A stretch of DNA of 64,000 bases from Elusimicrobiota bacterium (GTDB taxonomy: Bacteria; Elusimicrobiota; Elusimicrobia; JACQPE01). The translations under genes and the position numbers were made by a program. Every line of letters begins with the position of its first letter. Position 1 is the first letter of the stretch. The notes under the pieces are model-generated. The model was given only the letters and a program-made list of their open reading frames with translations. It ran no database searches and had not been told where the DNA came from. The stretch covers positions 1 to 64,000 of the forward strand of contig JACPAN010000005.1 in NCBI GenBank assembly GCA_016180815.1. Direction: 5' to 3'. Positions 3,441 through 56,700 of this stretch are shown one piece after another.

Positions 3441-3445
3441 GGGAG
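3441..3445 (+). promoter_or_regulatory. Ribosome binding site of the 3453 gene
   Basis: GGGAG lies seven bases before the GTG at 3453 and fixes this start, which places a charged cytoplasmic head ahead of the membrane helix. Confidence 0.6.
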
Positions 3446-3452
3446 AATCATC

Positions 3453-20700: not shown

Positions 20701-23700
20701 GCTTGGCTGGCACGGGAGATTATTGAAAAGAACCGCAAGAATCCACCGGCGCCGCCTTCCGCATCCACCGGTGAGGCCCCTGCCCCTGCTCAACCCAACG
20801 GTCCTAATCGTTCCGTTTTCTACAACGTTAAATGGGTTCTTATGGGCGGTTTTTTGGCCTTCTTGGGAATTCAGGCCGTAGCGTCGAATGTGATTTTCGG
20901 TAATCTAGTGACCTTGGCCGGATTGATCGTCGGCGGCGTGGCCGGTATCGGGCTTTTATCCGATGTGTTCGTTATTTTCTTCCAATTTTTGTTGCCGCAA
21001 ATGGGCCGGCCGCTGACCGATGAAGCTAAAACGCAAAAAGCACGGGAATTTGAGTTGTTCCTGGACGTTGAGATGGTCAGGGAGCTTGTCAAAAAAGAAG
21101 GTATCGATAATATCCTGGCCAGGATGAAGGCCAATGCCGGGAATGATTACATCAGCAGTCTTCACTGGGCGCCGGTTCTGGTTGTCTTAGGCAGCGTGGA
21201 TTCAAAACGCGCGGCTACGCTGGTCGCTCAGATGACTCCCGGTGAAGCCGAGCATGTGTTGAGCGCCATCATCAGCCATCCGCTTTACGCAAAAAGCGCG
21301 GTCCGAATTTTGGCTCAATTGGAAAGCGTTGGCCATGGCTTTTTCGGCAGTTTTAAACAGTTGGTGGTCATGCCCCAGCGGCTGGAGAAAGAAATCGGCC
21401 GCATGAAAGATGTGATTCATGAGCAACCTGAGGAATTTCGTCAGGCTGAAATTCGAGCGTTGGAGCATATCCGCAAATTGGGCGGCATCGATTCTCAATT
21501 GCGGTCGAGAATAAGGCCCTATTTCACCAGCCGGTGGAAAATGTGGAAATTCGCTTTGGCGGATCAAAACCAGGACGCCATTTTCATGCGTCCCGAACTC
21601 ATGAACCGGCCGTACGCGTTTTACCGGGTTCTGGCCAATAAGGTCCATGATCTCAAGGACCCGCATAATGGCGCTTTGAAAAAGTGGGCGGCGGAATTGG
21701 GCGCCTCGCGCAAGTATTTCTCGAACCGCATGTTTTATTTCATGACCATGCTCATTGGCATGATCGTTTCCGGTTTGCCCATTGAAGCGGCGTTGGCGGT
21801 GTTTCCGGGCATTGAAAAAACCGCCGATCCTTTAATTTCTTTTGTTTTGGGCCAGTTGATCGGTGGGCTGGTGGGAGCCAAGGTTTTGGGCGCTAAAGCC
21901 ACGGCGGAAAACTTGATGAATAAAGAGAAAAAAGGGTGGCAGCGGTTCGCCGTCGTGCCGATAGTCGTCGCTCTTGTTTATTTATTGAGCCAGGCGGCCA
22001 ACCTTTGGCCCACCTTGGCGATGGGCGGTCTGATCGCCGCGGCCATGACGATTTGGCATTGGATTTTACCGCGACTCCGGGGAGAAGCAATTCAAGGACT
22101 TGCCTGGACGCGCAAGGCCGATGCCTCAAAGAACGCGGACCGGCAATCAGCGGCAAATCCTCAGCAGGCGGCCAAAAGCGGTCAAAAGCGAATGTCCGGC
22201 CAAGCAGGCTTTGTCAGCGTTGAAGTTTTGGGTTTCTTGGGCGGCGGAGCCTTGGGTGCGGCTCTCGGTATAGGCCTGACCATGTTATTTGGGGTTGCGG
22301 GAGGCATTGCGATTGTTTATTTGGGCGTTCTTGGAGCGGCAGGAGGATTTGTTTTGGGCCGGCGTTTGAGCCGTTCGCGAGAGGCTGCCCTGCCTCCCGG
22401 AGCCAAGTCTGCATCAATCGCCGATGATTTTGCGTCCATAAGCGACGCGGGGGACGAGCCTCCATCCGAGCCGCCGTCCGATGGTTCCGGGGATATGGAA
22501 CATAACGAACCCATGGTGACGATTCGCTGGGTTCCCAAGCAAGGAGAAATCGCCGAAACCGTGACTCAGCCCTTTAGCATGGTTCAGGGAACGGACGGGG
22601 AACGGGTGATTTGGGATGAGACGGTTCAAGAGAGGCTCAGGCAAATGGCTTCCGACATGGGCCTATCTCTTAACGATTTGGACGCCGTCGGCGGAAAAAT
22701 CAAATATGCTTTCGCGAAAAAAGACGTCGGCGATCAATGGTTCGATATTTTAGTGCCCCGTTCCATGACCAAAGCGGCTCAAAAATTGCTCGGCAAAAAC
22801 GGCGCCGTTGAAGCGGTCAATGTCCGCAATTTGCACGTGTTCGACGGCCGCGAGTGGCGTGACGCCGAGACCGGGGATGACTCGGGCGAGCCTCCTGTTT
22901 TTCCGGATGAAGCGCGCGCCGTTTTGTTGCGCGAAGCCATGGATTTGGACGCGTTTTGGCAGGGCTCCAATTACGGCGAGGGCGCTCTGGTGACGGCCGT
23001 GGATACCGGTCTTTCTCCTCATCCGGCGTTGACCGAAGACCGCGTGGCCGGTCGCGTTGATTTAAGCGGCACGGGTTTGGTCGACGGCATCCGCCACGGC
23101 AGCCATGTCATGGGCATTATGGCCGCCGGGCTCAAATACGTGGCCGGCGCTTTGGCGCGGGCCGTTGGGTTGAACCGCGAAACCCGGGACGCCGCGGCCG
23201 CCGGCGCGGAAGAGGCGCTGAAAACTTGGCCTTTCCCGGGCGTGCTGCCCAAGGCCCGTGTTTTTTCCGTTAAAATTTTCCCTTCCCACGAGCGGATGAG
23301 AAAGCGCGTCGTTGAAGTCGGCGGGCGCCGCTTGGTTCTTCCCGTTTTCGACCGGCACTCCACGGAAAGCGATTTTTTGGCTTCCTTGATCGAGGCGGAT
23401 AAAAAGGCCGTTGAGCTGGGCATCACGCGCGGCGTGGCGTCGAATCATAGCTACGGCGCTCGTTTCGGCAACGCTCGCGAGGCCTTAGCCTTATCCAGAT
23501 TGGTCAAGCCCAAGAAGCAAGGCGGCATCGGCGCCTTGCCGGTGGCCAGCAAAGGCAATTCCGGCCCGCTTAAAAATTCCGTCGGTTATCCTTCGGGTTA
23601 CCCCAAAGTTTTGAAATCCGGCTCGACTTACATCGATAAGAAAAAACGCCAGCGGCTTTCTCATTTTGCTTCGATCGGTTATGCCAAGAATCCGGTCAAT

Positions 23701-26700
23701 GGTTTGTTGAATTTCGGTTTGGGGGCCCTTACGCCGGGCGGTGACGCCTGGAAGCACCCCAAATCTCGAGTGTTTAAAGACGCCATCACATCCATCAACT
23801 CGACGCAGGGCGATCCTGATCCGTTCATGGACGCCAATCAAGTCATGGTTGATGGAAAGCCTTTAGCAGTCAATATGGCCGGCACTTCCATGTCCGGTCC
23901 GGCCGAAACAGGCATCGTCGAAGGCTTGGCCAATGGCTGGGGCAAAATCATGAAGGATGCCGGGCTGGACGAGGATTTGACCGTTGAACGCGCCGCCTAT
24001 ATCATCCAGAAAACAGCGCGAGACTTAGGCTATATCCACGATATTCAGAATGCGGGATTTGTGCAGGCTGGACAGGCGTGGAAACTGATGGAGCAGTTAG
24101 CCAAGGAAACGATCGAGGGCCGGGGCGCCGTTCTTGAGGACTACAAAGATTTCTTGGTGGCCATGGAAACGGGCCTGACTCCTGCGAGCGAAGGCGCGCC
24201 TCAGCAAAAGCTGTTGGAGCTTTTGGGTCATCGAGATTGGCTGGTCAGGCTTTATGCGGTATTAGGATTCATTAATCATCCCGTCCGGGCCGGGCCCGAA
24301 GTCGAAGCATTGCTGCGCGTGGCTGCCGGCGATCCTCAAGCAAGAGTCCGTCGCGCGGTTTACGAAGCCCTTTATTACCAAAAAGACTCCAAAGTTAGGT
24401 CTCAAGTTCAATCCCTCCTCAAGGTTTCGGATGTCAGTGAAACCGATGCCCTGTATAAAGCCCATGTTTTAGCCGTCTATGACAATAAGAACAGTCAAGC
24501 CAGAATCGTTATCCTGGAAGCTTTGAAAAAAGCCGTCAAAGAAGACGATCCCTATACGGCGCTTAATGCCCTCTGGATGGTGGGGACGTTCCGGCATCAA
24601 AACGCTCAATTTGCCGAGGTTCTGCGCGATATCGCCGACAATGAAGGGGAAAGGGAATTGGCCGCTTACGCCAGCCATGCGGTGGCTGAAATCGCCAATT
24701 CAACGCCGCTCAATCAAGTCGCTCATGTTTTGACGCCCAAATTCCTTCTGGGCATGATCGAGAAATTCGCCCGGCCCGGCAATCAGCCTTATGTGCGCGA
24801 TTTGGCTTTGACGCTGGCGGGTTTGATGGCCCGGCAAGGGAAAGACGCCAGAGACGCTTATTTTGCGGATCAAGAGTTCAGCGAAGGCGTGGGGAAGTTT
24901 TTAGAGAGGTACGCCGAATGGGAGGGTTCCGACCGTTTCTTTATAACGATTTTGGCCATTTTAGAAGGAACGCCCATGTCGAGGCTGATCCTCAAAGTGG
25001 CGCGCATTGAGCCGTTTAAAACGGATGGCGATGACGTTGATGCGCCTTTACAGGGCGCCGGGCCGGTCGATCTTGTGGTGCGTCCGCCCAAAGGAACAAA
25101 AATCAATCGAGCGCTGTTTGCGGATGACGCTTTGGCCTTGCAAAATTTCGTGCGCGCAACGTTGGGGTTTGACCCGGAACTCGTCAGGCGCCAGGGCGGC
25201 CTGTTGATTGCGGCTTTGCCGAACTTTGAGACAAGAAACGGTTCGTTGATTATCCGCGTTGATCAGCCGGGACGGGCGGCGCAGGTGCGCCGGTTATTAA
25301 GGACGCTGGGGATGTCTTCGCGCATAGCCGGAGAAGTCAAGGCCCTGATGCATGATACGGGTCCTTTAAGCGGGACGCCTGAAATGAGGGAAAAATTCGG
25401 TCTTACCGGAGACGGCGTTTTAATCATCACCATCGATGATAATTCGGATTTGGGCGACGCGCGTTTTGATGGGCGCGTCCTTTACGAGGAAAGCTATATC
25501 GATCCTAATAAGCGCGCTCAGAAGAACCGCGGCTCTCATGGATTTTCCGTAGCTACGATCGAGGCGGCCAAGCCGGTCGGGGGCAAGCCCGAGGGCATGG
25601 CGCCGGGAGCCAAGCTGGCGGCTCTTCAGGCTTTGGATCATCGCTCCGGTTCGGGCAGCGAGGCTTCGGTGGCCATGTCCATGGAGCGGGCTATCCAAAT
25701 AGGTGAAAATTTACCTGAAGGCGTCAAATTTGCGGTCGTGAACATGAGCCTGGGCGCTTCAATCAATAACGCGGATCACCCTTTGGCTAAGCTGGTTGAA
25801 AAAATGCAGGCCAAGGGTTTATTGGTGGTCATGGCAGCAGGCAATGACGGTGGGCGGCCAGGGGAGGGCACCATCGGCATTCCCGCGGCCTCCCGCGCCG
25901 GCAAAGCTGTCGCTGCTTTAAACAAAAGAAACGGCCGCGCTAACTTTTCCGCTGTCGGCCCGGCTAAGGACGCCAGAGGCAAACCGCTGGCGACGTTGCG
26001 ACCAACGGAAGCGAGCTACGGGCAAGGCGTGGTCGTGGACGGCCGTCCGATTAATGGGACTTCTTTTTCATCGCCTCATGTGGCCGGGCTTGACGCGGCC
26101 ATCAGCGAGGCGGCCATTAAGGCTTATGAGACCGTGGGCCGACAATTTAATCCTATTGCGTTCGTCGCCAAATATATTCCTTACGCGCTGGCAATCACCG
26201 CCGAGAAAGGCAAACTGCCCTACGATAAAACCGAGGTGGGGGCCGGCGCCAGAACGAAAGACGTCAATACCGCGATTATCGAGCGCATGCAAAAAGACAT
26301 CGCCGAGAACGGCGATTTGCCGGTTCAATTGTTAGCTTCGGGGACACCGGTTAGAATCAGCCCAAGGGCGTTCGACGATCTCATCTCCGGCCGCAAAACG
26401 AATTTTATCCTTCGCAATATTTTTGTCCCTAACGGCCGTTTTTACGTGACGGACGCCCGGCGCCGGGTACGCGTTCAGGCCGCGGCCTTGCATAAGAGCC
26501 TGGGGACGCTTGAGTCTTGGTATGCGCCGTTGGTGGCGGGTTTTGAAGAGCTTCTTGGGATTTCCGCCAAAACCTGGCTGCGTGAGCGGACCATCAAAAA
26601 AGCGCTCAGAGGTATGAACCCGGAGCAGTTCGTTACGATTTTCAATGTCAGCGAAATCGGGGAAGTCCTTAAAAAGACCGGCGTTGATAAAATTGTTGCC

Positions 26701-29700
26701 GCGCAGGAAGGCCCCGGCCGTAAAAGCGTCAACAGATTCGTCAATGATTCCACCCTGAAACCCGCCCGCCCGAAAATTTGGCTCAAGAATCTTAAGGCCG
26801 CGGGTATTTTCATGATGGCCAATTTATTGGGCGGCGCTTTAATCGGCGTGACGTTCGGGTTCGCTTCCTGGGCGCCGATTCAAGGTCTTTTGACCGGGAT
26901 GGCGATTTCACTCGGGCTTGGCCTGGCGATGGCGCTTTTTTCCAACAAATTGCTCGATTTTCTGACTAAGAGGCGTCATCTGCCCAGGGAAGAAGCTCCC
27001 GAAGTTTACGCGATGGTGGAAAAGCGTTTGGGCGTCGAACTTGAGCGCGCCAATGGCCGGCTGCAAAGACGCAAGATTCAAACCTTGATCAAAAAAATCA
27101 AGATCAAAATCGTCGACAAAGAGAATTTCATGATGCCGCCGTGGATGGCCAACGCTTTTGCCACCGGCCTCATCGCGCGTTTCGGTCAAATTACCGTTAC
27201 GCAAGGTATTTTGAAACTGATGGATCCCAAAACACCGGAGGGCTACGAAGCCTTGGAAGCGGTGATCGGCCATGAGCTTTCCCATATTATCGACGGCGAC
27301 GTGGCCGTCAACACCTTGGGCAGCGTTTTCGGCGGGGTTTTGGATCGCGTGGCCGTGGGTTATCGAGGCAAAGAATTTCCCGCAGGCGTTTTGTCGTCGG
27401 TGTGGCGATTTGTGACGGCCACTGTGTTGACGCTGTTCGGCCCGGTCGTCAATACAATCACGAATTTGGCCGTCGGCCGGGATCGGGAAAGCACTGCTGA
27501 TTTTCGTTCAACTTGGCAGGCGGGAACGTCCGACGGCATGATCAAGGGGCTTTTGAAATTGATGTACGGGCAGCAGCTCTCCATCGGCCCCATCGCCTCC
27601 ACGTTTTATAGCGCGCCGTATCTTTGGATTACGCCGCCGCCTTATGAGGATTTGCAGCTTTTCTCAACCCATCCTTCCATCTGGCGGCGGGTGAAAAATT
27701 TGCTTCCTTATGCCAGCCCCGAACTTAGGCCTCATGTTGAAGCGATTTTGAAAGAATCTCAAATCAATATCCCGGCCGAACCGGTTCAGGTGCCGCCCGA
27801 CGCGGACAAGGGCCCCAAGCTGACCGATCCCAAGCGTTCGCCTCTGGTGAAAAACGTCGTATCCACCGGCATCGTCGCCACGTTGAAAGGGTTGGCGTTG
27901 GCCGGAGTCGTCATGCCGGTCGGCCTTGTCATGGGCGCTTTGGGTTTTGCCGCGATGTTCGCTGAGATGGTTCTTTGGGAGTCTTTGTCGTGGTTGTACC
28001 TCATGATTCGCGGGCCCAAGCTTTCCAACGAGCAGTTTTACCAGCATTTGCGCGCGATGCGGCATATGGGCGTTGTGCGCGACAATATCGAATACCGGCC
28101 GTACCGGAATCATTTGTTTAATTTTGCCTGGGGCGCGACCAACGGCTCTGTTCATTGGTGGCGGCCTCAGTTGTTGGCTTGGCCTCAGCAGAGGATGATC
28201 ACTGAGCGAAATTTACAAGCCCGGGATGCCGCGCCCAAGAACGTGATCGGCCGCGTCACCGGTTATTTAAAGGCGCTGCTTTCCGATATGCAGAGTTCCA
28301 TGATGGCGCGCCAGCCCACGGCGTTGAATATTCCCAGAAGCTTGGTGATGGTTGTCGCCCGTTTTATTCTGCGCGGAGGTGTTGCCGTGGCCACCGCCGC
28401 GGCTGTGGGATTGACCGTCGGGTTGGCGCCCATGCTGCTGGCGGTTTTGGGGGCGCAATTGCTTGTTTTGGTGTTCTCATTGGTGGCCTCCGGAATTCGC
28501 GGCAATACCCGGCCCGTCGATCCGTTGCTTGAGCTTAAGCGCGGATTGGTTTCCTCCAGCGCTCATGCCCGCAGTCTAACCATCGAAGCGGTGGTGGCCT
28601 TAGGCAAAAATGCGGCTCCGGCGTTAAAGAAGGAATTAGCCAAGGTTTTGAAGGAACAACTCGATCAGGAAAAAAATCCGGAGTTAAGAGAACGGCTGAA
28701 CAGCGCTTTGCAGGAAGTTGTCCTGGGCATGACCGGCGCTGCGGGCGTCGTTGTCGCCGCGGTTCAGCGGCCGAACTCAGCGCCGACTCTTCAGGAAATC
28801 GCCCGGAATCTAAGCAATTTATTTTTGAACCCCAAAAAACCGTGGCGTTCGGTTAGAGGCGTTAATTTCAACCCTGAATCAAAGGTCGTTGTTGTGACGC
28901 TCAAGGATAAAAGATATTTAAGCCGCGCCAAAGCGGCTGTGATCAAGCAATTCCCCGGTTATGAGCGTTATGTTCGTTTTGACATCGCCAAACCCGTGAC
29001 CCCCCAGGCTCCCCCATCCGGCGGAACATCCGAGCCTGGCCAGGGTCAAGGTTCCCAAGCGCCTCCTTCGCCGGCTTCGTCACAAGCTCAAGCCGCGGCG
29101 CCGACCCAAAAGACGGTTGCTAAACCAAAAGTCATTATCCTCCATGCCTCATTCGGCGCCGGCCATGAGATGGCCGCGGAATCCTTAGCCAAAGCCTATC
29201 GTCAAAAGGGCATCGAACCTGAAGTGATCGACGCCCGTCAATATTTGCCTAACTCTTTTTACGCGCGTTTCCTGCAAAAACTTCTTTTCTTTTTGCAAGG
29301 AAAAATGCCGCGAACTTGGGACCGGTCTTATCGCTGGGGAGAGAGGCCCTTGCTTTGGCCCGGTGTTTCCTTTATTCGCCGTTTGTTGAATCGCTTAAGC
29401 TACAGGAAACTTGTCAAGGATATCGTCCAAAAACAGCCGGATATCGTCATCTCGACGTATATCCCGTTGGACGGCCTTTTCAAGGCTAAAGAGAAGGGGC
29501 GGCTTAAGGCCAAATTAGGCGTCGTTATTACGGATTGGTACCCGCACGGCATTTTAGTCGACGGCCGGGCGGATCGTTACTATATCGCCGGCGGCGTCGA
29601 GGCGATTCTTGCCGGTGGGCAGGCCAGGAAGGCTCAAGATGAGATCATCCGCAAATTGCAAAGTCTTGGCGTTGCCGGACATAAAATTATTGCCACCGGC

Positions 29701-38700: not shown

Positions 38701-41700
38701 GAAGAGGATGTTCGCGGATTCAAGCAGGAATTCGAGCAAGTGTTTGAAGTGGCCAAGGCCGCGGATACCGGGACGTTAGGCAGGCTTGCGGTGCGCAAGA
38801 AAAAGAACGCGAACGCCCCGGCTCGGTCGGAGGTTTCTGGCGTGGAACGCGAAAAGGAACATGCACCCCAGCAGACACCTCGCGTTTCACGTCAGAAATC
38901 TTTGGCCGGCGCGGCGCGCTCAACGAGAGCCAAAAAGGGCCAGCGCGGTTTCACCACCGTTGGGGTTATGCTGGTTTTGGCGGCCGCCGGCACGCTGTTC
39001 GCCTTGGGTTGGATGGCCGCGGCCGTGCTCTTAGGGCTGGGCATGTTAGCGGGCACCGTCACCAACCGGGCGCCGACCGAGGAACAACGGCGCGGGTTTA
39101 GAGCCAAACCCGGAAGTCCGGGGAAGCCTTATTCGCCGACGATGCTCAAAATGCTGCGCGATCTGCCTGATCCCAAACCCCTTAAAAACGGGATGCTTCC
39201 CGATGAATTTGACGAGTTTATCAACCAATATATTTTAAGAACCCATTTGAACGACCCTCCGAATTCGATCGGCGCTCAACTGGTCATGGGCACCGCAGTT
39301 CATCGCACGCTGGAGGAAACGATTCATCGCGCCCTGCTCATGCATAAGCCTGTGAGCAAGTTGAGTTTGGCCAATACCTTGGTGACTTATGAACGGATGT
39401 GGCGCGAAGTGGTTGCCGAGGAATTATCCAAAGGCAAAAAAGTCGTTGCTCCGGGCTCAAGCGTTGAGAATTACCGCCGGGGCGGACGGCTGTTCTTGAA
39501 GATTTATTGGGATTACCTGATGAACGGGGAAATCATCGAACCCGACGCCGAGGACGTGATTTTTATCGAGACCATTCTGCATTCATCCCTTGAGGACCCG
39601 GCGACCGGCGAGCGCAGATCCGTCATGGGTATTCCTGATTTTGCCATCCGCATGAGAAAGCGCCGGACCGATGGAAGCGTTTATCACAAGACGACCATCG
39701 TCGACATGAAAACCCATTTGAAGGTGCCTTCCAATGCGGAAATCGACCGGATGTTTTTCCAGCAGGCGATGTATGCCTTGATCATTCAGCGGGGATACCC
39801 CGAATTGGCCGAGGATGAGTTTGAGGGCAATTTGGTTTTTCGAACCAAATATTCCCGCAAGACATTTTCTTTGGATATTTTAAAGCAAACTCAGGCCGAT
39901 GCCGCGGCCCGGATGCGCAAGGCGGACAAAATTGCCGAAATTGTCGAAGCCAATATGGATCAATACCGCGAGAAAAACGGCTTAAAAATTGCGGTGCCCG
40001 AGAAAGATCGCCTCGGTTTCATTCGTCAGCAGGTGGACCGCCTGTACGCCGTCGGCGCGGAAATTCGGGAAACCAAGGAAATTCTCAAGGACTTAAACGA
40101 CAAGGAGAATGTTTTAGCCGAAACCTTAATCGCCATCGCCAAAGAGAGAAACGCGCCGATCTTGGTGGCTAATGACGAAGATCAGGTGGAGGTTTATGAT
40201 GAGACTACGGTCGCGGCGCCGACCAAAAAAGATAACCCTGAGGGCTATGCCGAGCTCGTCAGCGTTCTTCAGGATGAGGGGCGCTGGAAAGACTATTCAT
40301 CCCTCAGTTATGCCTCGGTCAAAAAAGACGAAAAGCTTTTAAAGAAAATCGGCCGCTGGGTTACAAGAATTCCCGTGGCTGCCGTTGAGATTTTGAAAAA
40401 ATCCGGGCTTTTAGGCCTTCTTGTTTCCATTCTGGCGCCGTTGGCGAGCCTATTGGTTCTAACCACCACCCGGGTCAATCCGAGCGCGTCCGTGGCCCGC
40501 GATGGGTATTTTTCTCATAGCAGGCGCCAGACCTTTGATTATTCCAAGGTCCGCTTTGCCGGCCGTTACTTTATAGGCGGCGAGGAACATTCCACCCGGC
40601 CTGAACTGGTCGTGGGTAAAGTGGTGCATTTGGCTTTGGAGGATTTCCACCGGTGGGTCATGGACCAAGCGCGCCGCGGCAAACAGCCCGATGCTTCGAA
40701 ATTCGGCAAGGATAGAATCACCGATTCTTATTCAAAGCATTGGCAAGAAACCTTGGCTGAATTAAAGAAAAACAAGGTGGCCATCGAACTTCCCAATCCT
40801 GATTTCACGATTGATGATTGGAAAACGGACGGTTTAAAACGGGCCCAGCGGTATTTGGAGCGATTCAATGATGAAATCATCCGCGACCGCAAATTGGTCA
40901 AAGTGATTTCCGTAGAAAAAGAGGTTCTTTATCCCATCGAGGATGAAGACGGCGTCGTGTTTTGGGAAAAGGCCGTCCCGGATTTCGTCATGCTCTTTAA
41001 GGAGAAGGATGAAGGCGGCCGCGAGGCGGAGGTCGTCGAGATTCACGACTTTAAGACCATCCGCATCGCGCCGACGATCAGCACCATTAAAAAACGTTAT
41101 CCGCAGACCGTCGGCTACGTGCGCGCCGTCAACGAGCTGTTCCCCGGTTTTAAGGGCAAGGTGCGGGTGTTTTACGACTTTGAAATGTTTTCCCAGGGGT
41201 ATGAAGTCACGCCTGAAGGCGTGGAGGCTCAAACCAAGGAAGATTTGCGCGTCAATCACCAAATTCTTCAGTTTAAAGACGAGTTTAAACAGAACGAAAT
41301 TTATTATCAGCAGAAGCTCAAGATCAAGCCCATCGTTCGGCTGGCCGACAAAGAGCGTCAGAAAGTTTTGGAATGGCAGAAAGCCGCGAATGATTTATCC
41401 GTGCAAAGGGATCATTTGCGCGGCCTTGAGAACGAACGTTTGCTGGTTGAAGAAGCGCTGCTGGAAGCGGCTAAAAAAGAGGGTCTCAAAAAACTCGAGG
41501 GCACTCAGGGCAGAATCGCCATCGTCAAAGAATCGCAGACGGTTGTTTTGCCCACCAAAGACAGCGATCCTCAAGCCAACGCCCAGATGATCGAGAAGAT
41601 TCACGAAAACAGCGTGGACTCCAAAACTCATTTTAATTTGGACTTGCCTAAATTAAAGAGATTGGCCATGGAGCAGGGTCATGGCGATCATGCCTTGTGG

Positions 41701-44700
41701 AATAAGATCAAACACCTCTTTAAAATTGAATATAGCCCTGTGCTTTCCTTGATGCCCAAGGAAGACTTGCGCGTTGCTGAAAACTCCTCCAGAAAAACCG
41801 TCAAGAGGCCTAAGGGCAAGTCGCGAGGCTTTGCTTCCGTGGAAGTGATCGGCGTTTTGGCTGTCGCCGGAGTCGGCGCTTTACTTGCTCCCTCGTCTTT
41901 GCTCTTGATCGGCGTCGGCGCAGCCGGCTTGGGCAGCCTCATCGCATTCGGCGTGGGCCATCGCAAAAAAAATCCTTGGTTGACCGCCGTCGGTTTTATC
42001 AGCGCGGGTTTGGCCTTGTCTTTGGGACTGGGAACATGGGATTGGATTGCTTCGGGTTTTTTTCTTGCTTCCTCTTGGCTGTCGACGAGAAAAATTAAAG
42101 AGAGCTTTTTCTTTGGTTCCCTCGGGGGTATTTTCATCACGCTGTCCGTCTTGGCCGCCGGGAAGGGTTTTGCATTGTTGCCCATGAACATTGTCTATAC
42201 GATTTTGTCCTGGCTTGGCTGGAGAACGTGGGCGAAACAGGAAGAAGGCCGTCAGGTGAAGCCGCCGTTGAGCGACTGGCGTATCGCTGCGCCTTTGGTT
42301 TTGTTGGCTCTCGGGGGACTCGGCTATCTTTGGTATGTCAAGAACCCGGCGACTTTGCTTGGAGTGACTGATTTTCTGGCATCGGCTATTGGGTTGCCCA
42401 CGGCTATTCTTTTGGCTCTAGGATATCGAACCGGTTTTATCGTCAGCAGCGTCGGCAGCGTTTTGCGCATTGTTTGGATTATCGGGATGCAGGCTTTGTG
42501 GGGACTCTTGGGACCCATGGGTCTTGGCCTATTCATGAACTGGAAAGGCTGGAAGAATTGGGGGCAGAAAGCGGGTCAAGCCCCGGTTGTCAAAGCGCCT
42601 ATGCCTTTATGGCAGAAAGTGGCGGGCAATATTTTCTTCCCTGTCGTCCTTGTCACCATAGCGGCCTTGGCGTTTCCTGAGCTTTTGCTGGGCGCCGTTG
42701 CCGTTGTCGCCGGGTTGCCCTGGTGGGCGTTGCTTGGCGTAGGGAGCGCCGCCGCTTCGCTTGTTTTTTGGCTGGCCTTTAAATCCGCGCCTTTCGATAC
42801 GTTGGGCTATGCGGCAAAACGAAAGATTCTTGCCGCTTTGAGTTTTGCAGGTTTAACGCTCTCCCTTCCCTCCATGACCAAACCCCATAAGACAGTTCTT
42901 TCCAGCAGGCTGGCTAATAAAGAATTGAAGGCCGTTTTCTTGGATTATGACGATACCATCGGCCCATGGAAAATACCCATAACTCCGGAGATGGCCGAAG
43001 CTTTGGCTAAGGTTAATAGACGGACGCAGGTCGTCGTGATCAGCGACCGCGCCGAAAAAGACGACTTTCCTGCTTCATTGATGCCCATGACGCCCGAACA
43101 GAGAGCGGGGATGATCGTCGCCGGAGAGAAAGGCGGCAAGATTTGGAGATTCGATGAGAATGGAGAGTTGGTGAGGATTCACACTGAGGAGGCTTGGGAC
43201 TGGGAAAAACCCGGCCAGGAGGAGACGATTCTTCTAGAGGCTCTCGGCGGGCTTAAAACGAAGGCTGCTGAGTTAGGAATCGAGCTGGAAAAAGAATCCG
43301 AGAGCGGTTATCATAAAGTCTTGATATTTAAATTGGGGACGGATATCAAGAAACTGATGGCGTTGGCGAATAAATTTAATGCCGTGATCAAAGCCAAGGG
43401 TTTATCCTATGAGTCTAGGGCCAAAGAGGCTAAAGATCCAAAAACAAGGCCGCCTTACATTGAACTTGGAAAATTCGACAAGAGTCTCAGCGTGCGCCGC
43501 ATTAAAGAGATTCTGGGCCTTGAGCGCCCCGAAGAGACGGCGGTCATCGGGGACAGTTTTTTTACTCCTAATTATTGGGAGTGGTTGACCAAGCGTCCGG
43601 GTTGGATTCAACGGCTAGGTTTGCCTGTGACCGGCAATAGCGTTGACGAAGTTATGGCAAGCGCTTTGCCCGGCGCCTTGGCGATCAGCGTCGGCGGAAC
43701 AGGCAATCCGAGAATGCCGAACCTTTATGTTTGGCCGACCGAAGGCAGGACTCAGGCGGAACGCGGGCCGCGCGCTACGCTCGAAATTTTAAATGCGTTA
43801 AGCAAAATCGACCCCAACAATCAAGGCGGTTCAGACTCGGTTTCCGATCCATCAGGATCCGCGGATAAGCAGTTTTCCGATAAGGTTAATGTCGGCGAAG
43901 GCCAGGGGGCGCAGGCCCCGCCGTTTGTTGAGAGCGCCGGCCCGGAAACGGCGAGGCCATCTCAGGAAAAGGAGAGTGTTCGTGAGATTGCCTCGACGCC
44001 AGAAGCGCCAGGCGGCAAGGCCGAAACTGCGGCCTCCAATCAGCCCGCCACCCAAGAGCAAACCCTTGTCGATGACTATGCCCAGAAAGTGGGGCATGTC
44101 GCCAGCCTGTTCGAACGTTTACGCGAGTTGCGGCCGGAAATTTCCGTGGTGCGGGAATCCCTCTTGGCCTACGCCCAAAAATTCAAGGTCAAATCGATCT
44201 CGGGATCGGATAAAGTCCTGGAAATCGAAATGGGCGCCAAGAAATTGGATATCCCCAAGAAAAGCCGGGATCGGGACGCCTGGTATGCGTTTCGGCGCAA
44301 ACTGGAGGAATTGAAAGTTTACGACGAGCGTTTCGCCCGCTTGGATACCGTCGCTTTGGCCCGCCGCATCGAAGAGGGCCTGGGTGAAGAGGAAATGCAG
44401 GCTTTATTCCCCAACGGCATCGAGAATTCGAATTTTGTCGAACTGTTGCCTCAGGCCTTGGTTATTCTGGAATCCATGGATAGCGACCATGCCGTCATCC
44501 GCGATGAAGAAGCGGAAGAGGTGGACGAGGATGAAGATGAGGCCGTCGAAGAAGTCTTGGAGCCCGGCGATGATGCGGAGGTCATGACCGCCGAGAATTT
44601 ACCGACCCGCTCCGAGCTCAAAAAAACGGACGGCCAACAGCTTGTCGATCTGTTTTTAAAACTCACGACTCAGGCCAAATCTCTTGGCGAAGGGATCAGG

Positions 44701-47700
44701 AAAGGAATTCAGGATAAAGACGCGGCCAAGAACGCGCTGATTGATTTCGCGCAACAGGCCAACAAAGAGGAGTTAGCGGGCACGAAGTACCGGGCGCGCG
44801 TTCTTTACACCACTAAAGCCAAGGTCGTCACCAAGAAAAAGAGCCCGGCTCTTTGGACCCAGGTTCAAGACATTGTCTTTTCACTGACCAGCTTACGGCG
44901 TTCGGCCACGACGTTCAAGCGTCAAAGCCTCTTGAAAGCGTGGGAGGAGGGGGAATTCACCAAAAAACAAGAAAACGAGCTGGCTCCTTTCTTTAAAAAT
45001 GCCGCGGAAATTAAATTCCGCTGGGCCAACAAGCGCGGCCAAGCCAGGATTTCCGTGCTGCCGCTGATGTTGATGGCCGGAGGCCTGGCTTTATTATCGG
45101 CGATGGATTGGACCAAGCTTTTTTATGTGGCTCTTTTTATACCCATGGTCATTGTCAGCGGACTCCTGCACGAGCTGGGCCATGGGCTGACGGCGAGATT
45201 ATTGGGCGATCGAACGGCCGAACAAGCAGGCCGCTTAAGCCTTAACCCCTTGGCTCATTTCAATAAAAATTTGAGCTTCAAAAAGCCTTGGATTTTTGCG
45301 CCTGTCCCCATTGATGAGCATCATTTAAAACGAGAGCTGCGCGGTTGGGGGCATATTGCGGTTTTAGCCATGGGCCCGGCAGTCAATTTATTGTTGGGCG
45401 GCTTAGCTTTGTTTCTCCTTTATCCTCTCGGTCTTCAATCTGTTTTTCCGCTGATAACGACTAATGCCGTATTAATGTTTGCAGGGATTAATATGCTGCT
45501 TGGTTTCTACAACCTGCTGCCCTTTTTGCCGCTTGACGGCGGGCAGATTGCGCAGAACCTGCTTCCCCGGCGTTGGGCGCATCGTTACGAAAGAATGCAG
45601 AAGCATGGCCCTGTTTGGGCTTTGACTGTTGTTTTTATTCTTATGGTTTCAGGAGTGCTGAATCCTTTGCTGGCGGCGTTGACGCCGTGGTTCGGTTTGA
45701 CGGTTTCCGGAGAGGGGCGCTTTACAGGCGCCAAGCTGTTGACGAACAGCCTTGGGTTGATACCCCTCGGCGTCGCTTCATTGCCCACGCTTCAAAATCG
45801 TTTGGATGAATACAATCAAACGCTTAAAAAATCCAAGCTGCCTGCCATCGATTTAGATAATGTTTTCGTCGTTCCGCTTTCAAGCCCGTTAAATGAGCTG
45901 GAGGCCGAGCATGTGGAAACATACGGCGCTTTCCCCTATGAGGGGAAAATTTATCTAAGCCTTGAGTTTGTCAAAAGCACGGAGGATGTCGATCATTATG
46001 TCAAAGCCATGGCTGCCGCGCATTTATTGGCGCACGGGGTGAGCCCTGAGAGTCTTTCCGGGTATACCAAACGCACGACAGAGCCCGTTTTGGAGGCGCC
46101 GAAAGTCCAGGAAAGCACGGCTCTTGTCGTCGTCAAAAAAGACAAATCCTCTGTTTTTGAAGATCGCGAGCGTCTGGAAGCTGCGGAAGAAGCCTTAAAA
46201 GGAAAAATTGTCGGCCAGGATGGCGCCATTAAGGATGTCGTCAATAGGCTTAAACTTCGCGCCGCGGGCGTAGTCCCGGCGCGGGCCAAAGAGCGCCCTC
46301 TGGGCAATTTTGTGTTCCTCGGCCCCACGGGCGTCGGCAAAACGGAATTGGCTAGGGCTCTGGCGGATTATTTTGAAGTTCCTTTGCTGCGGCGCGATAT
46401 GTCCGAATACCAAGAGGAACATAAAGTCAGCCGTTTGATCGGCTCAGCCCCCGGTTATGTGGGCAACAAGCAGGAGGAGCAAGAGGGGACGCTGGTTGAT
46501 GATGTGATTAAGAATCCGGTTTCCGTTGTTTTGTTGGACGAAATCGAGAAAGCGCACCCCAAAGTTCTTAAAGTTTTGCTGCAAATTTTCGACTATGGGA
46601 CGTTGACGGACGGCCTTAACCGCACGGCTAAATTCGGCCAAACCATCTTCATTATGACCAGCAATGTGGGCCAGGAACTTTTCGGCAGGCAAAAAGAAAT
46701 CGGGTTCGGCCGAGGCCTGCAAGACGGGGGCCCGCGCCGCGTCTCAACCGCGCAAGTCGAACCGTTTTTAGTCCAACTATTGGGCAAAGAGCTGGTTAAT
46801 CGCGTGAGAAAGGGGATTATCACTTTTGATGCTCTGGCGCCGGAGCATATGGAGCCCATCGTTCGTTTAAGGCTGGCCGAAGTGGCCGCTGCGGTCAAAG
46901 AAAACAAAGGCATCAAACTGGTTTGGACGAAGCGAGCGGTTGATTTTTTGGCCAAAGCCGCTTATGACCCGGATTACAATGCGCGCGAGGTTGAGCGCAC
47001 CGTTGAAACCTGGGTGCAGGACCCCTTAGCCGATCAGATTTTGGATGAAGAATGGAAGGACGGCGATGTCATTCGCCTTGATGTCAATCAGGATCAGTCG
47101 GGGCTCGATTTTATCGATCAATCCGGTTCGCGTTCCAAGAGTTATGGTTTTGCTTTGGTGGACGTGCTGATCGTTTTATGGATGGTGGCTGTGCCGGGGG
47201 CCATTGTTCCGTTTCTTTTATTTAAAGCCGGGCAATGGGCTTACCGGCGATTTATTCAACCTGTTCCGGCGCCGAAAGAGTTGCGCGGCAAGCGCCTGAT
47301 GATGATCGGCGGTTTAGACGGCAGAGAATTCGTCGTGAATAATTTAAGAAAAGCGGGAGTCAAAATCGTTCTGGTGGATGAGCCGGAGAGCCCATGGAAA
47401 ATTCTGGCGGATGAGTTCATTCCGGTTTCCATGACCGATCCCACCGGCGAATACAAAGAGTTCGTCGAAACAGTCACCCGTTATCTGGATCAAAATAAAA
47501 TCGACGGGCAGCCGTGGGTATTTTTTGACAGAAACGTGGTGGCCTGGGCCCGCCTTCGCAACGCGCTGGGGTATCTTTCGGACCGGGAGCTTAAGCTGAT
47601 TCTGACGGCGCGGGACAAGGGAGAAATGCGGGGTTACCTTAAGGCGACCGGACTTCCCATGGCAAAATTTTTCCGAATCATGCCTTCCTCTGATCCTGAG

Positions 47701-50700
47701 GTCATAAAGGAGCGGCTCCTTGAAGCGGGCAAAAGCGCGGGTTTTCCGGCCGTGCTTAAAGTGCCCAGCGCCGCCTCCGGCAAAGGCTATCGTTATGTCA
47801 AATCCCAGGAAGAACTGGAACAGGTTTATCTCGGGCTGCAAAAATGGATTTCCGAACAGCCTAAAGATGTGGTACGACGGTATTATCCGGAATTCATCGA
47901 CGGCATGGGGCCCGTGGTGCTTGAAGAATATCTTCAGGAAAAAGCCGAATACCGGGCCATGGGCATTGATGAGCATGATGTTGATGTTTTAAAGCAAAAC
48001 GGCAAAATCAAGGCTGTTTTTATCGCCGACAACAAAAAAGTCAGCGCCCAGGACCCTCGTGATTATCGCGACGGTTACCCCTCTCAACTTCCAGCCCAAG
48101 AGCAGGTCAAAATCAAGGAGTACGCGGAAAAGCTATTGGCTGATTTTCCGGACGGCCATTATCATGTGGAGTTGATGGTGACGGACGGCGGGATTCAGTT
48201 GATTGAAAACAACACCCGAATGGGCGGGGAATTCGTGGGCATTGTCGCCAAAGAAGTTTGGGGCGTTGATTTTCCCGTGTTAAACGCCATGATAGCCATG
48301 GGCATGCCCATCGATCAATATCTGCCGCCCATGGATAAGAACGGTTTGCCTAAAGCGCGGCGGGCCGCCGAGGCCTATATGTGGCTTTCGCCGTTCGCCG
48401 GAAAAATAACCAAGCTTGAAGGTTTTGAAAAATTGGCGCGGCGCAAAGACGTTTACCTGCGCCTGGTCAAGAGAGCCGGGGACAAAATCACCGGGCCTGC
48501 GTCCGGCTATGATTATGTGGCCTATGCCCTGGTTTACGGAGACAATTTTGCGCAGGCCAGGAATAAGCTCGAGAATATCTTAGGGGAAACCGGTGTCGAG
48601 GTTGATGAGGTTACGGTTTCAGAGAAAGGCTCCGCTGAAAACTTGAAGAAAAAAGCCAAAACCAAGTGGCCCTTTTCTTCATCCACGATAAAAAAAAAGC
48701 GCCCTAAGGTAGATAGCCCCGTTGGAAACCAGCCGCTCATCCTGAGCTCGTCGAAGGATGAGCGAAAGGCTTCCCCGGGCTTATGGTTCGACAAGCTCAC
48801 CATGAGCGGGCGTCGGGGTCCTCAACAGGACGGCTCAAGGGCTCCGCCGGCCGGAGACGGCTCCCAAAGCGTCTCTTCTCCCACCGATTTAATTCCTCCC
48901 TCCCGAAAGCCGGACAATAAATTCCTTGGTTTTTTCAAATGGCTGTTCAGTTCGCTCGCGTTTTGGACATGGGGCAGCCAAGACGTTGAATCAGACGGCC
49001 GATACTGGGTTGTTGTCCGCGCCAAGGACCGCGTTGAGCGCACCAGACTGATTCAATCAGGTTTGGCCATCAGCAGAATCGATCTTGACGGCGGGCTTGT
49101 CGAAGGCACGGCGCATGAACGCTCGCTCGCGCGCATTCGAGAGGGCGGGTTTGATGTTTTGCGCGCAAGAGCCCTGTCTGATTTTAGACCGGATGATTTC
49201 CCAAAGAAAGATGAAATCTATCACAACTATCAGGAGATGATCGGTGAACTTCAGAAATTGGCCAAGGAGCATTCCGATCTGATTTCTCTATTCTCTTTGG
49301 GGAAATCCGTGGAGGGTCGCGATATTTGGGCTCTTCGTTTTAACACCAGCGAAAGGGAAGGTGACAGTCCCCACGCGAGCCAAAAGCCCGGGGTCGCTTT
49401 TTTTGGCACGCATCATGCCCGGGAACATTTGACCACGGAAATGAGTCTGCTCTTGGCCAAACATTTGGCCGAGAATCGTAACGATCCGGCGATGAAAAAT
49501 CTTCTGGAGAACCGGGATATTTACATTATCCCCATGGTTAATCCCGACGGCGTAGAACACGATATCGAGACCGGGCGCTATCGATGGTGGAGAAAAAATA
49601 GGCAGAAGAATAAAGCCGGCGGCGTGGGCGTCGACTTAAACCGCAATTACGCCAAAGGATGGGGCGGTCCCGGCGCCTCGCCTGATCCTGATGATGAGAC
49701 TTACCGGGGTCCGGAACCGTTCTCGGAGCCGGAGACTCAAATTGTCCGCGATTTTCTCAAGGCCAGGAAAAATATCAAAGCCGCGATGTCGTATCACTCC
49801 TTCAGCGAGTTGGTTCTTTATCCCAATTCCCATACTTACGATCCGGTGGCCAATGTTAAGGACCGGGCTGTTTTTGAGAAAGCAGCGACAACGATGGCGA
49901 GGTGGAATAAATACCGGCCCATGCCCGCCTCCGAGCTTTATTTGGCGTCCGGTGAATGGGGGGATTGGCTTTATCATGAGTTGGGTATTTTTTCCTTCAC
50001 CACCGAATTATCGCCCAGGGATTTGGGCGAAGGCGGATTTTATCCGGGGCCCAAAATGATCGAAAAGGCGTTTAAAGACAATTTAAACCCGGCTCTTTAT
50101 TTGATCGATCTGGCCGATGACCCATACAAAATTTTGAAAACTCAAGACAACGGCGGCGGTCCTGGAACCGGCGGAAATTCCGAATCGCCCTCAGGGTTAT
50201 CGGCGAGCTGGACGAAAATTTTGGGATTTTTTTTGGCTGCCGTATGGCTGGCCGGCGGCGCCAGCGGCGTCGTGCCTGTCGACATTTGGACCTTGGGGTC
50301 TTTGGCTATCGCCATCGGCACCTGCAATTCCATGCGGGAAAGGGAAATTAAAGATACCAATATTTTGCCCAATCCCAATGACCGCGACCTCCAGCAGAAA
50401 GCTCAGAAAGAACTGGATGATATCCTCATCGCTTTCGGCAAGAAAATGAAGGAGTTGGCCAAGGCTGATGAGCGCGTGCAATCCTCGGTCAATGCGCATA
50501 AGGCGGAACATGCGGCTGAAAACCCTGTGCTGGATAAGTTGGTTGAGTGGCGCAAACGTTTGGAGGGCGGGGAGAATCTGGACCGCGACGCGGCTTTCAT
50601 TGAGCTTCGACAAGGCATTCTTAAGGAGCTTAAACGGACCACATTGACCAAAGAGGATGGGAAGCTCATCGAGGAGTTGTTCGATCAAAGCGGCTTTTGG

Positions 50701-53700
50701 CAGCAGTTCCTTGATTGGGATCAAAAATACGGGGCTTGGGATGCTCTAAAGAAAGACATTGAAGAAGCGGCGGCCGCAAAAAAACATTCCGGCGACGTCG
50801 TTATCGAGCAGGCCGGTTCAAGCGATAAGAAAAAAGAAAAAGGCGGCGGGGGCGGCTCGCTGAATTCATTATTTTTCTTATTTATGGCCGGCTCTCTCTG
50901 GGCTAAAATTGCGGCTTTTCTTGAGCTGGGTTTGCTGGGAGCGGCGTTTTTTTTCGGCCCGTCCGCAGGCTCATTGCTGCTGGCTGGTTTTGCGTTGGGC
51001 GTCGGGGCATTATCTACGGTCAGCCTTGCTCCCGAACCGCCCAAACCCCTGGACTCTTATCTTGATTCATTGGGCTTGACCCGCGATGAAATTAAAGTTC
51101 TTTATGAGTACACCAATGATATCGGCGCCAAGGACATGGCCCCCGTGATCGGCAGCGTTAAGGATATTCAGCGTATGGTCACTATTCTTTCTAAGCCTTC
51201 CGGTTTTCAGAATAACCCGTTATTGTTAGGCGATAAAGGCGTGGGCAAAACAGCCAGGGTGGAGGCCGTCGCCAAATATCTTTATGAGAATCGTTTGCCG
51301 GGCTTGAAGGGGCGGCGCATTTTAGAGCTTGACGTGGGGCGTTTGGCCGCGGGCACCGCCGTGCGCGGCGAGATCGAGGAGCGTTTGATCATGCTTCGGG
51401 ATGTTTTGGCTAAGACGAAAAACAATGTCATTCTGTTCGTTGATGAGCTGCATACCCTTTTGAAAAACACGGCGACCGGAAATTCCATCCCCGATCTTCT
51501 TAAATCCCCTTTAAGAAACGGCGAAATCACGGTCATCGGCGCCACCACGCTGGGCGAATACCGCAAATATGTTGAACAGGATCCGGCTTTCGCCGATCGT
51601 TTTGAGACCGTGATGATCGAAGAACCCAGCGAAGATGAAACCATTGAAATTATGGAAGGGATCAAGGGCTACTTAGAGGAAAAAATCGGCGTTAAAGTGG
51701 AGCCGGACGCAATCCGGACCGCGGTTCGCCTTTCCAACAGGTTTTTACCCGAGCGTTTTCAACCCAGAAAGGCACGCCTGCTTCTTGAGTCGGTGATGAC
51801 GGAGATCAAGCCTGAGGTTCAGCGGGACGGCCTTGAAGTGCAAATCGATCAGCTGATGGGCAGGATGAGGATTTTGATCGAGCGTTACGCCGCGCTCAAA
51901 AAAGACCCTAAGAGCAGCGAGGCCGAGCAAATTCGCCTGTACAATCAAATCGTCACGATTTATCAAACCATTATTTCTCTGGAGGCGCGCCAGCAAACCG
52001 TTGCCTTGCGCAGCGTCACCAAGGAAGACGTGGCCCGCAAATTAGCCCAGGAAACGGGCATTGATTCCATGAGCCTGGAGGACAATGTTTATGAGCGTCT
52101 GGAAAAAATGGAGCCTTGGTTCACTGAGCGTATCGTCGGGCAGGATGAGGCGATTAAGGCTTTGGCCGACACAATAAGAAAAAACAAAGCCGGCCTTTCG
52201 GACCCAGGCAAACCCATCGGCAGTTTCCTTTTTGCCGGGCCCACGGGCGTGGGTAAAACCGAGTTGACCCGGCAACTCGCCGAGTTTCTCTTTGACGACC
52301 CTGATGCCGTTATCCGCATCGACATGGAAGAATATATGGAGCAGTTTTCGGTCCAGCGCCTATTCGGTGCGCCTCCGGGTTATGTGGGCTACGATCAGGG
52401 CGGCCAGTTGACCGAAGCCGTGCGCCGCAAGCCTTATAGCGTTGTTTTGCTTGATGAAATCGAGAAGGCGCACCCCAAGGTTCTGGATGCGGTTCTTCAG
52501 ATGCTTGATGCCGGCCGTATGACGGACGGCAAAGGCAATACCGTTGATTTCAAAAATACGGTTATTGTCATGACCTCCAATTTAGGGGCGGGCGGCAATG
52601 TGATGGAAGCCATTAGACAGCGCCTGCGTCCGGAATTCATTAATCGCATCGATAAAATCGTCGAGTTTAATGCTTTGGATGAATCCCAGGCCCAGGCGAT
52701 CGCGCGTATCGCTCTTAAGGGTTTAAACCTGCGCTTAAGGGATCAGGATTTGGCCTTGGACGTGAGCCCGGAGACGGTTGCTTGGCTGGCTAAAATCGGT
52801 TTTGATAAAAAATACGGCGCCCGGCCGATTAAACGCGCTATTGAACAGAATTTAACCACGCCGTTGGCTGATTTCATTCTTCAGAAACGAAAGGAAGGGC
52901 TTTTGATCAACGGGGGCATCGTTAATGTGGAATTGAAAGAGGGCAGGCTTGACTTTGCTTTGCAGCCGAATCCGCCTCCCAAACTCGATCTGATGCCGCT
53001 GCCTGAGGGACCGGTAGGCGCCAAGCTCAGAACCCTCCTTGAAGAGTCGCTGAAAGAAAATTCAAGCATCACCAAAGACATGCGCGCTTTTGAGGCCATT
53101 CTTTTCCCCGGGCGCGTTCAAATCGAACTTAAGGATCCTCTGGGCGCGTTCAGGCCAAACACCCTGGCGCCGGCAATTAACACATCGTTGAGCCAGATGG
53201 ATAAATATGAGCGCCAGATGGTGCAGGGACGTTCTGCAATGGCCGGCATTTCGGGGGATTTGAGCTGGGAGCAGACGGCTGAGGATGGTAAAAATGCCGC
53301 GCTTGAAGCCAAATTGTCTGATCTCAGCAAAGAGGCCCAATCACGTTGGACAAGTCCGGATTCTTTGGAAACTGTCTTGACTTGGCTTGAAGCGTTCGCA
53401 GGATTGGCCACGCCGGGCAAAAAAATCGAATTCGTCTACGGCCAACCCGAATACGCCGGCCAGGCGGTTGTTTTTTCTTTGCGCATTCCTATGGGGCTTA
53501 ACTTCGCCGACGAGCAGCGTCTATTGCGTTTTTTTAAAGATCATTTTTCCGTTCCCATGACTGATGAGCAGGCGGTGCGGGCTCGCGGGGGCCAACTCAA
53601 GAATGAAGGCAAAGAGGCGAATCTCGATATGCTTCAAGTCAAGCATTTGATCGAAAAAATCCCGGACGCCTTGTTCGGTTATAAATCCGATAAGGACGGC

Positions 53701-56700
53701 GTTTGGGAGTTTTGGCTTGAGATGCCGCTTCAAGAGTTGCCGGAACCGCCGCCACAGGCTAAAGAGAATACCACGGCAACGAAGGAGCAAAAAGATTCTG
53801 CATCCGTTGAGCAAGGCGGCCTATCGTTTAAGCGGCGGATCGACGAAACCATGGGGCGTATCGATGAGACCGAGCCAAACAAGGACTCTAAAGAAAAAAA
53901 GGTCCAGGCGCCTTTAACCGTCGCCGATGCCCGCTCGTCTCCGGACAAAATGTTTTTATTTTTGACTCAAGACTATCCCAGAGAGCTTGAGGAATTGCGC
54001 CAACTGACGGTCGGACTTCTATCGGCTAAAGAAACGGTCAACCGGCTTGTCGGCCTGCACTTGGCCGGTGAAATGCTGCCCAAAGAAGCCATGCAGGAGC
54101 TGATGGCCGCCAACCGTTTTCTGCCGACTTCGCAGGGAACAGAATACGCGTATTTATTCGATTTGCTCGAGCGGCATCCTTCGTTGGTCACGGACGGCCA
54201 TTTGAAATCATTGCGCGATTTTTCAAAGAATGAGTTCGACGGCGCGCTGCGGCAGATCTGGAATCGCAGCGGCCCTTCCTGGCCGGCCAGTTTTTATACG
54301 CCGATAGCCGCCAGAATTTTCGGCGAACGGTGGAGCCAGGTATCGAGAAACCTGGTCAAACCCATGAAAACCCAACGGCGATTCATCATCGCCAATGTCG
54401 TGGGCATGGTCGCTTTGTCTTTGTTTTTGCTTTTCCTGGGCGGTTTTTCCATCTACGCTTCGTTCACCGGTTTGCCGGCTTTTTGGCCGTCTTCCGCCTG
54501 GGGATGGCCGGGGCGCGTTTTTATCATTGTTCTTGAGATCGTCGCCCAACTCATTGTTTTAACTTCTTGGGGTGTTTATGCCGCGCAGGGTTTAGCCCGC
54601 ATGCGCCGCGTGCCGAGGCCTGATGAGTTGTATCTTGATCCTCCGCAAAAGACACCGGCCGCGATCCGGATGACGAGGCGCTGGGTTCACGCGGCTTTCA
54701 AAGGGAATCTTGCAGGCGTTCCCGTGGAATTGTTGGACCGGGCCCTGGTCCTTACCAAGGATTCTTTACCTCAACAAGAAATACGGCGGTATTTGGGTGT
54801 TTGGAAGAAGAAAATGAAAAAAATTTATGCCCGTTTAGATGAGGGCCGGAGCGTCAAGGAAAGAGAATTCAATCTGGTTAATTATGTCGGCTATCTTGCG
54901 CCGATTATTCCTCCCGAAGAACGGGAAGAGGTTTTTGACCTTCTCCTCGGCCTTTGGGGCCGGGGGCAGGAGCCTTATTATTCCAATCGTGAGGAATACT
55001 ACAAGGCCTTGGCCGCTTGGATTCGTTCCGATGGATTGAATCGGCAGCAAGTCGAGCGCCTGATTGCCATGGCCAGTCAGTCAAGAGCCCGGGTTTCGCA
55101 AATTTATGAAGCCCTGGTCGCCATTGCCGAGAGATCGGATGAGTGGCCGAACCTCCGGCCCAGCATTAAAGCCATGATCGAAGCCTCCCGCGGTTATGGA
55201 GGTGACAGGGTGGACAGCGTCGTGGACTGGGCTTATTGGAATGCGGCGTTGGGGGAAAAACTCGATGTTGTTTGGGGCAAGATCATCGATGCTTTGCCCA
55301 AAAACGAGACATTTTCACCGACCGAGCGTTTTGAAGCCATGGCGCTGCGTTTTCCCATTCCTGAAAACTTGCGCCAAAAATTCAATGAAGCGTTCGCAAA
55401 ACGCTTGACCGATACCAAAGGGGTTTATGAGTTGCCCCGCGCCCGCTGGATCGCCTTCCTTGTCAATAATCAGATTTATCCGGGCGGGCTTGCCGAGATG
55501 GTTCGCTGGGTGGGAGGTTGGAGCGATATTTCAAGGGGATGGGGACAAGAGGCATACCCCAAAGTTCTTGAGTCGCTCAGGATGCAGGCCAAGGTAAAAG
55601 TTCAAAGCGCGAAGGAGTCTGATGTTTTTCGTTCAGCCATGGGGAATTTGGCCCGTTTACGCTCAGGCATGGAAGGGGAAACCGGCCGGCCTTCGCCGTC
55701 GGCTTCAGGCGGCTCCAGGCGCAGCGGCGTTAGAAACGGCGGTTTTGTTCTGATCGAGATCATGGCGATGATCGCCGGTTTTTCAATCGCAGCGTTAGCG
55801 GCTTTTACCGGTTATCAGCTCTACGGCGCGGGCGGCGCTATTCTAGGCGTCGCTGTTTCCATAGCGACAATGGTCATCGGCTACCCTATCGTTCGTTGGA
55901 TTCTTGCCAAAATCCGTTCGCCGGGGAATTCAATTTTTAAAAGCCCGTTTCTTCGAGAAATGTTGTGGAGCCGCGGTATGTTGATTTTCATGGCCGCGGC
56001 TCTTGTCGCTTTTGGCTTGGATACGGGAACAAAACTGTTTGCGCTTTATTCAACGGATGGGCTGGGTGTTGCTTATCATGTCCGGCCGCAATTGATCGGT
56101 TCTTTGTTGGCGCTGACCTTGCCTTTTGTCTTGACCATGCTCATCATCAGGGCCGGGATTAGAATGCTGACCCATAAATACGGCGCCGAGCTTCCCTATA
56201 TTCACAAAGTTGCCGGCGCCCTCGATATTGCCTTGGGTTTTGTATTCGGCGCCGCCATTTCCTCGGCGCTCGAGTTATTGACTTGGGGCGCGGGCAGCGC
56301 CATCAACTGGATCGCCGTGGGCACGGTCAGCGATCCCGGGTGGTGGGTCATGAATATAGCGGATCTTTTCCTTTTCTTTTTCGTGCCCATGGCGTTTTAT
56401 TTGATGCTTAATTTGACGGCAAGGGCCCAGGGGGGAGTTGAGAGCCGCATCGGCGCCGGTCCGTGGAAAATCACGACGAGCCTGTTGATTCTTGGTCTTA
56501 GCGGCTGGACGCACGCGTTTAATTACATGCTCGACGGAAATCCTTTTCGTTTGTCTCATTTTATCGGCGGGGCCATGCTGGCGACGATCGGCGTTTTGAT
56601 GGGGGAATCGGTTCTCAAGCTGTTGGAGCCATCCGCGCCCAAAAAAGAAATCGCCGGCGGGCCGGACAAATCGTTTTTTAAAGTCTCCAAACAGAAGGGC

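Follow-up and report, generated by a model that had tools for sequence, protein, structure and literature searches.

In viral polyproteins, such as those of the flaviviruses, membrane hairpins lie between the modules of one long chain and some of them carry a site for the host signal peptidase. TadE-type pseudopilins show a Gly followed by an acidic residue at position +5 of the helix and are cut by prepilin peptidase, with the site at the N terminus, a single helix and seldom a Phe at +1. A motif of this kind is normally confined to the very start of pilus subunits, and prepilin peptidases are known to cut short N-terminal leaders only. The known class III leaders comprise 6–26 residues at the N terminus; their Gly-1 is absolutely critical for processing, which takes place on the cytoplasmic side, Glu5 is dispensable for processing and required for homopolymeric assembly, and the prepilin motif by itself suffices for membrane insertion (PMC4471445). 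Elusimicrobiota and Omnitrophota are phyla enriched in proteins of more than 5000 amino acids (PMC11573180). The stretch analyzed here (the window, 64,000 nucleotides of contig JACPAN010000005.1, hereafter C5) belongs to a 2.85 Mb genome (G000) of an uncultured Elusimicrobia bacterium, phylum Elusimicrobiota, and contains a giant open reading frame (ORF; 8770–62034, on the forward strand like every feature of the window given below) that starts with GTG and encodes a mosaic of enzyme and membrane modules of 17,754 amino acids. The giant falls into the same phylum-level class of proteins above 5000 residues but differs in its internal prepilin-like seams, which are undescribed in the literature searched.

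Five such sites were found in frame, from ~4,480 to 15,660 residues into the ORF: GQAG-FVSVE (22207), GQRG-FTTVG (38947), KSRG-FASVE (41827), KSYG-FALVD (47146) and RNGG-FVLIE (55741), the hyphen marking the Gly-Phe bond. The five positions, the Gly-Phe pairs and the +5 residues (E, G, E, D and E) had been listed in an earlier note on this DNA and are all confirmed by the sequence; the +5 residue is acidic at four sites (E, E, D, E) and Gly at 38947. Among the 71 Gly-Phe pairs of the protein only these five have both a basic upstream stretch and E, D or G at +5 together with a hydrophobic core free of charges. The basic stretch that the same note placed ahead of each bond is evident at four sites, where the upstream net charge is clearly positive, but 47146 is nearly neutral over 15 residues. 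Behind +5 there are 20–45 uncharged residues, as compared with the hydrophobic tract of ~21 expected for a class III leader.

A closer look at the individual sites reveals a common layout. The first (22171–22359) consists of a basic linker, G-FVSVE, an uncharged hairpin of 45 residues and RR. The second (38911–39066), placed behind the PLD module, has a basic linker (+5) followed by G-FTTVG and an uncharged hairpin, and is the top window site by both the pilin profile and the independent profile described below. In the third (41791–41961) a basic linker (+7) leads to G-FASVE, a hairpin with a central Pro and HRKK. The fourth (47110–47223) reads SRSKSYG-FALVD, followed by a short helix interrupted by two Pro, and sits in a 67-residue gap flanked on one side by the D2-small domain of a Clp-type AAA+ module and on the other by an ATP-grasp ligase; here AlphaFold2 predicted the ATP-grasp fold confidently and, with low confidence, an interrupted helix. 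The fifth (55705–55893) is formed by RRSGVRNGG-FVLIE, an uncharged hairpin of 45 residues and RWILAKIR; the two helices predicted in this region were of low confidence (predicted local distance difference test, pLDDT, 47) and were not used as evidence, the structure models being usable for the ATP-grasp module only. The sites are only 14–34% identical to the first one, and a recent duplication of one cassette was rejected on this ground.

The likeness to a class III signal peptide lies in the basic stretch, the invariant Gly-1, Phe+1, the acid at +5 in four of the five sites and the hydrophobic helix, together with a canonical PilD in the genome; the difference is that the sites lie deep inside the protein, with the N terminus thousands of residues away, and that Glu5 is often replaced by Gly. 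A type IV pilin or pseudopilin has a single N-terminal helix and a periplasmic globular domain, whereas here a second hydrophobic stretch is present at most sites and cytoplasmic-type enzyme modules follow. TadE-type pseudopilins share the Gly and the helical acid at +5 and depart from the present sites in the other traits given above; viral polyproteins share the hairpins between modules of one chain, but are cut by signal peptidase I at the opposite membrane face; the motif here is of prepilin type. The description of the sites as class III leaders stands as a resemblance, which holds and recurs, and fails in architecture, as they are internal, mostly start a two-helix hairpin and are not pilin leaders.

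Comparison with other genomes, all of them draft assemblies, showed 16 such sites in giant or long ORFs, present in each of the family's four sequenced genera, with one in another family (G037:C28; genome and contig). The element is present in two more giants of this genome (G000) (C13:3–41282, 13,760 aa, and C13:76248–94481, 6,078 aa), in G003:C27 (14,654 aa; public contig JACQJO010000064.1, 'Elusimicrobia bacterium'), in G002:C151 (3,414 aa), where it takes the near-textbook form RGFTIIETMIAVIGLG, and in G001:C123 and G001:C104. Gly-1 is present in 16 of 16 sites, partly as an effect of how they were found; +1 is Phe in 13 of 16 (M, L and A once each), and +5 is E in eight, D in one, G in six and N in one, so that an acid is found in 9 of 16. 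When the four family genomes were searched as a whole, nearly all strong matches were giant sites and true pilins or pseudopilins, with the exception of a helix in G002:C44. Among 20 other genomes of the class, the matches were almost all in ORFs of ordinary length, as pilins would give, and no convincing internal site was seen in nine large proteins (eight from outside the family) whose N-terminal signal resembles that of the giants. Two candidates for additional sites were dropped: GYAKME at residue 7082 of C13, which is a cation-efflux helix, and the G002:C44 match, which corresponds to the first helix of an M50 peptidase.

Basic residues ahead of a helix, together with the common Gly and Phe, might mimic prepilin leaders by chance convergence, and several results go in this direction: the curated prepilin models of Pfam (PF07963) and NCBIfam call none of the five sites (PF07963 reaches one C13 site, below the cut-off), one reversed-sequence control reached 12.9 bits against a profile built from 48 true prepilins of the class, and, of the two dropped candidates, the C13 helix was a false positive and the other is just that peptidase helix. 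In that prepilin profile all five window sites rank 15th or better among 3649 segments, although only 38947 (18.8 bits) among them clearly exceeds the reversed control, as does G002:C151 elsewhere (19.0 bits); background ORFs on the same contigs never score above 3.9 bits. A second, independent profile, made from nine comparable sites in other giants with the window sites left out, ranks the latter 1, 2, 3, 4 and 6 of ~890 segments. Conversely, a profile from just the five window sites, run against 41 genomes, found its best outside matches at the N termini of true pilins. The strict motif occurs four times in this protein (~0.27 expected from composition). Ten of the family's giant or long ORFs, 73,477 aa in total, contain six helices whose start has Gly-1, Phe+1 and an acidic +5 residue, where the single frequencies predict 0.35. 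With the near-restriction of strong matches to pilins, pseudopilins and giants in the family's whole genomes, these figures make convergence very improbable; the five sites are more than chance.

The uncharged stretch after +5 measures 34–51 residues at most of the 16 sites, which gives room for two helices and a short turn, and is then usually followed by basic residues. The hydrophobic helix of the earlier note is therefore present, but in nearly all cases as part of a two-helix hairpin, which the note missed, and not as the single helix of a pilin. The linker ahead of the site is usually low in bulky hydrophobic residues, those at 22207, 38947 and 55741 being among the lowest 2% in the giants (0.3–1.7 percentile). 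Isolated seam hairpins number ~31 in the ten giants and only a minority carry the motif, so the motif sites are one flavor among them; as similar seams exist without it, a seam does not require the motif. In the window, hairpins without motif are placed behind the motor module (14200–14358), ahead of the PLD module (15352–15471) and between the subtilase and M48 parts (26797–26946). The flanks of the 31 hairpins carry +1.77 and +1.06 charges per 15 residues (average 0.16) and, by the positive-inside rule, both would lie in the cytoplasm; topology was judged from charge only. Neighboring modules are of cytoplasmic type, with the Clp-type AAA+ and ATP-grasp modules around 47146, and GGDEF, sigma-70 regions and PPDK_N beside sites of the two C13 giants. 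Signal-peptidase-I sites were discarded for the seam hairpins, since AxA is not enriched (10 observed, 11.4 in shuffles). A second recurrent seam hairpin, LSxALPAxLFAxxEPxxGLLSMG-like and unrelated to the prepilin motif, was seen at residues 294 and 1599 of G000:C13 and at residue 5056 of G000:C31.

In the scenario that we tentatively prefer, with a probability somewhat short of even, the five sites are class III-type membrane-insertion elements at the seams of a mosaic giant, whose Gly-Phe bond is left uncut or is cut only irregularly. The linker, flexible and mostly basic, would end in Gly-Phe and lead into a helix carrying either an acid or Gly at +5; the helix would usually turn back as a second one, the chain going into the inner membrane and returning to the same side. 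We infer from the charge pattern that the element inserts as an N-in/C-in hairpin, and it would most likely act as a membrane tether or insertion start between enzyme modules. The recurrence of the element, its uncharged stretch of hairpin length, the basic flanks, the cytoplasmic-type neighbors and the capacity of the motif alone to drive insertion (PMC4471445) together argue for seam hairpins, to a degree that still leaves the balance a little on the side of doubt. Some observations weigh against it. Gly-1, Phe+1 and the buried acid persist in otherwise diverging sites, although it is not obvious why a tether that stays uncut would need them; they suit recognition by PilD better. The structure predictions for the hairpins are of low confidence.

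The N-terminal end of the protein also bears on the topology. A conserved export-type signal, ISLLILIALLITTPGLDFYQVFAQ (8917–9036), common to other giants, is found at the N terminus; it contains TxPGxxFYQ (roughly ISLxxxxxxxxTxPGxxFYQxxA) and recurs throughout the class in large proteins poor in cysteine, which it could help to enumerate. In G003:C27 two overlapping ORFs each start with a signal of this giant type, one at 1700–4603 (968 aa) and the other, at 4576–48537, being the 14,654-aa giant. Exclusion of cysteine is a known trait of exported proteins, and the giants are nearly free of it (6 of 17,755 here, 0 of 3,414 in G002:C151, and 0–0.3% in the family giants versus 0.87% for the remaining ORFs on those contigs) despite the ATP- and GTP-dependent enzymes among their modules. 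Signal and cysteine depletion would place the modules outside the cytoplasm, contrary to the hairpin arrangement proposed above, and export of the modules could put the Gly-Phe bonds in the periplasm, where PilD would not reach them. A cytoplasmic location is instead suggested by the charge pattern and by the modules that depend on ATP. Topology, and with it the access of PilD, is uncertain because of the conserved signal and the near-absence of cysteine.

The PilD of this genome, which the earlier note had advised looking for, is encoded and complete: FIDFETYLIPD and GGGDVKL, the two motifs with the catalytic aspartates, are both there, as are the CxxC pairs that bind zinc in the methylase domain. 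PilD might cut Gly-Phe at the cytoplasmic face and release six membrane-tethered fragments from a giant polyprotein matured by the pilin peptidase, a possibility that we consider real but doubtful. The linkers at 22207, 38947 and 55741, from their low hydrophobicity, are likely accessible, the charge pattern favors N-in, and Arg occupies -2 in 10 of 14 internal sites, compared with Arg or Lys in 35 of 48 true prepilins. Retention of Gly-1 at every site with replacement of Glu5 by a non-acid in 7 of 16 is the pattern that selection for cleavage, and not for assembly, would leave; as the sites were found by their Gly-Phe, which in part accounts for the constancy of Gly-1, this fit is suggestive only. 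Cleavage has to be reconciled with the thousands of residues that precede sites whose known counterparts are short N-terminal leaders, with the majority of seam hairpins that lack the motif, with the possible periplasmic exposure just described and with the changing position of the sites between genera (see below), and no precedent for internal use of a prepilin site was found in the literature searched. Maturation of polyproteins by PilD at internal class III sites, at module seams and across the whole family, is likewise conceivable rather than probable. If true, internal recurrent sites would widen the known range of the prepilin peptidase family, and would be one of the few clues to the organization, insertion and perhaps maturation of bacterial proteins of 10,000 residues.

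With regard to conservation, the sites are not kept in place in the sister genera. The ATP-grasp module behind 47146 is 49% identical in G003 and the module behind 55741 is present in G003 and G002, in all cases without the leader, and the G003 seam behind the PLD module keeps its two helices and lacks Gly-Phe; these observations are, in part, what the earlier note held would refute its proposal. The region of the first site has essentially no relatives in 79 genomes, and a search for more closely related loci returned G003 alone, with no second genome of the same genus found. Homology blocks switch partner at the seams, across several of the sites, which indicates that the modules have been shuffled, and the element seems to have been added or lost independently of them. 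None of the five sites falls inside a Pfam or homology block, in agreement with their claimed position between modules, but this is weak evidence (P ~0.03 by length, ~0.2 given the helix positions). A motif at module starts and the change of partners across it could also be expected if each module group had once been a separate gene headed by a pilin-type leader and the sites were fossils of gene fusion, as the earlier note offered as its other option. This origin is improbable and finds no support in the genomes: the same modules stand without leader in the sister giants, the four family genomes contain no free-standing protein of leader, hairpin and enzyme, all 14 homologues of the ATP-grasp module lack a preceding leader, and no convincing Shine-Dalgarno sequence with a start codon lies within reach of Gly-Phe. 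Internal translation starts were discarded on the same ground, a single TTG 20 codons upstream of 41827 being the exception.

A dispersed repeat, TCATTGCGAG, in places translated as EIASSPxAPRND, was observed inside giant ORFs at G000:C13 (near 78735–89869) and G003:C27 (near 65426–69575). At their contig ends (C13:73 and C31:18068) the ORFs of C13 and C31 have nearly the same starting sequence, and the assembly probably broke there at a repeat of this type; the repeat may also drive the shuffling of modules.

Pfam assigns to the giant PLD, subtilase, HEAT, M48, glycosyltransferase, DUF885, mechanosensitive-channel, PD-(D/E)XK, M50, Clp-type AAA+, L-amino-acid-ligase-type ATP-grasp, M14, met-zincin and second M48 modules. 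Most of the module names proposed before are in agreement with these; the HAD and LspA-like labels found no confirmation in Pfam. No damage was seen in the HExxH and Walker A motifs that were checked. Rfam gave no match within the window. The next gene after the giant (62063–64000, extending beyond the window end) encodes, as read from the sequence, a zinc peptidase of M16 type with the motif HLFEH; a two-lobed M16-type gene is located directly behind the giant in both genera, as a conserved neighbor, the G003 copy at C27:49814–52624.

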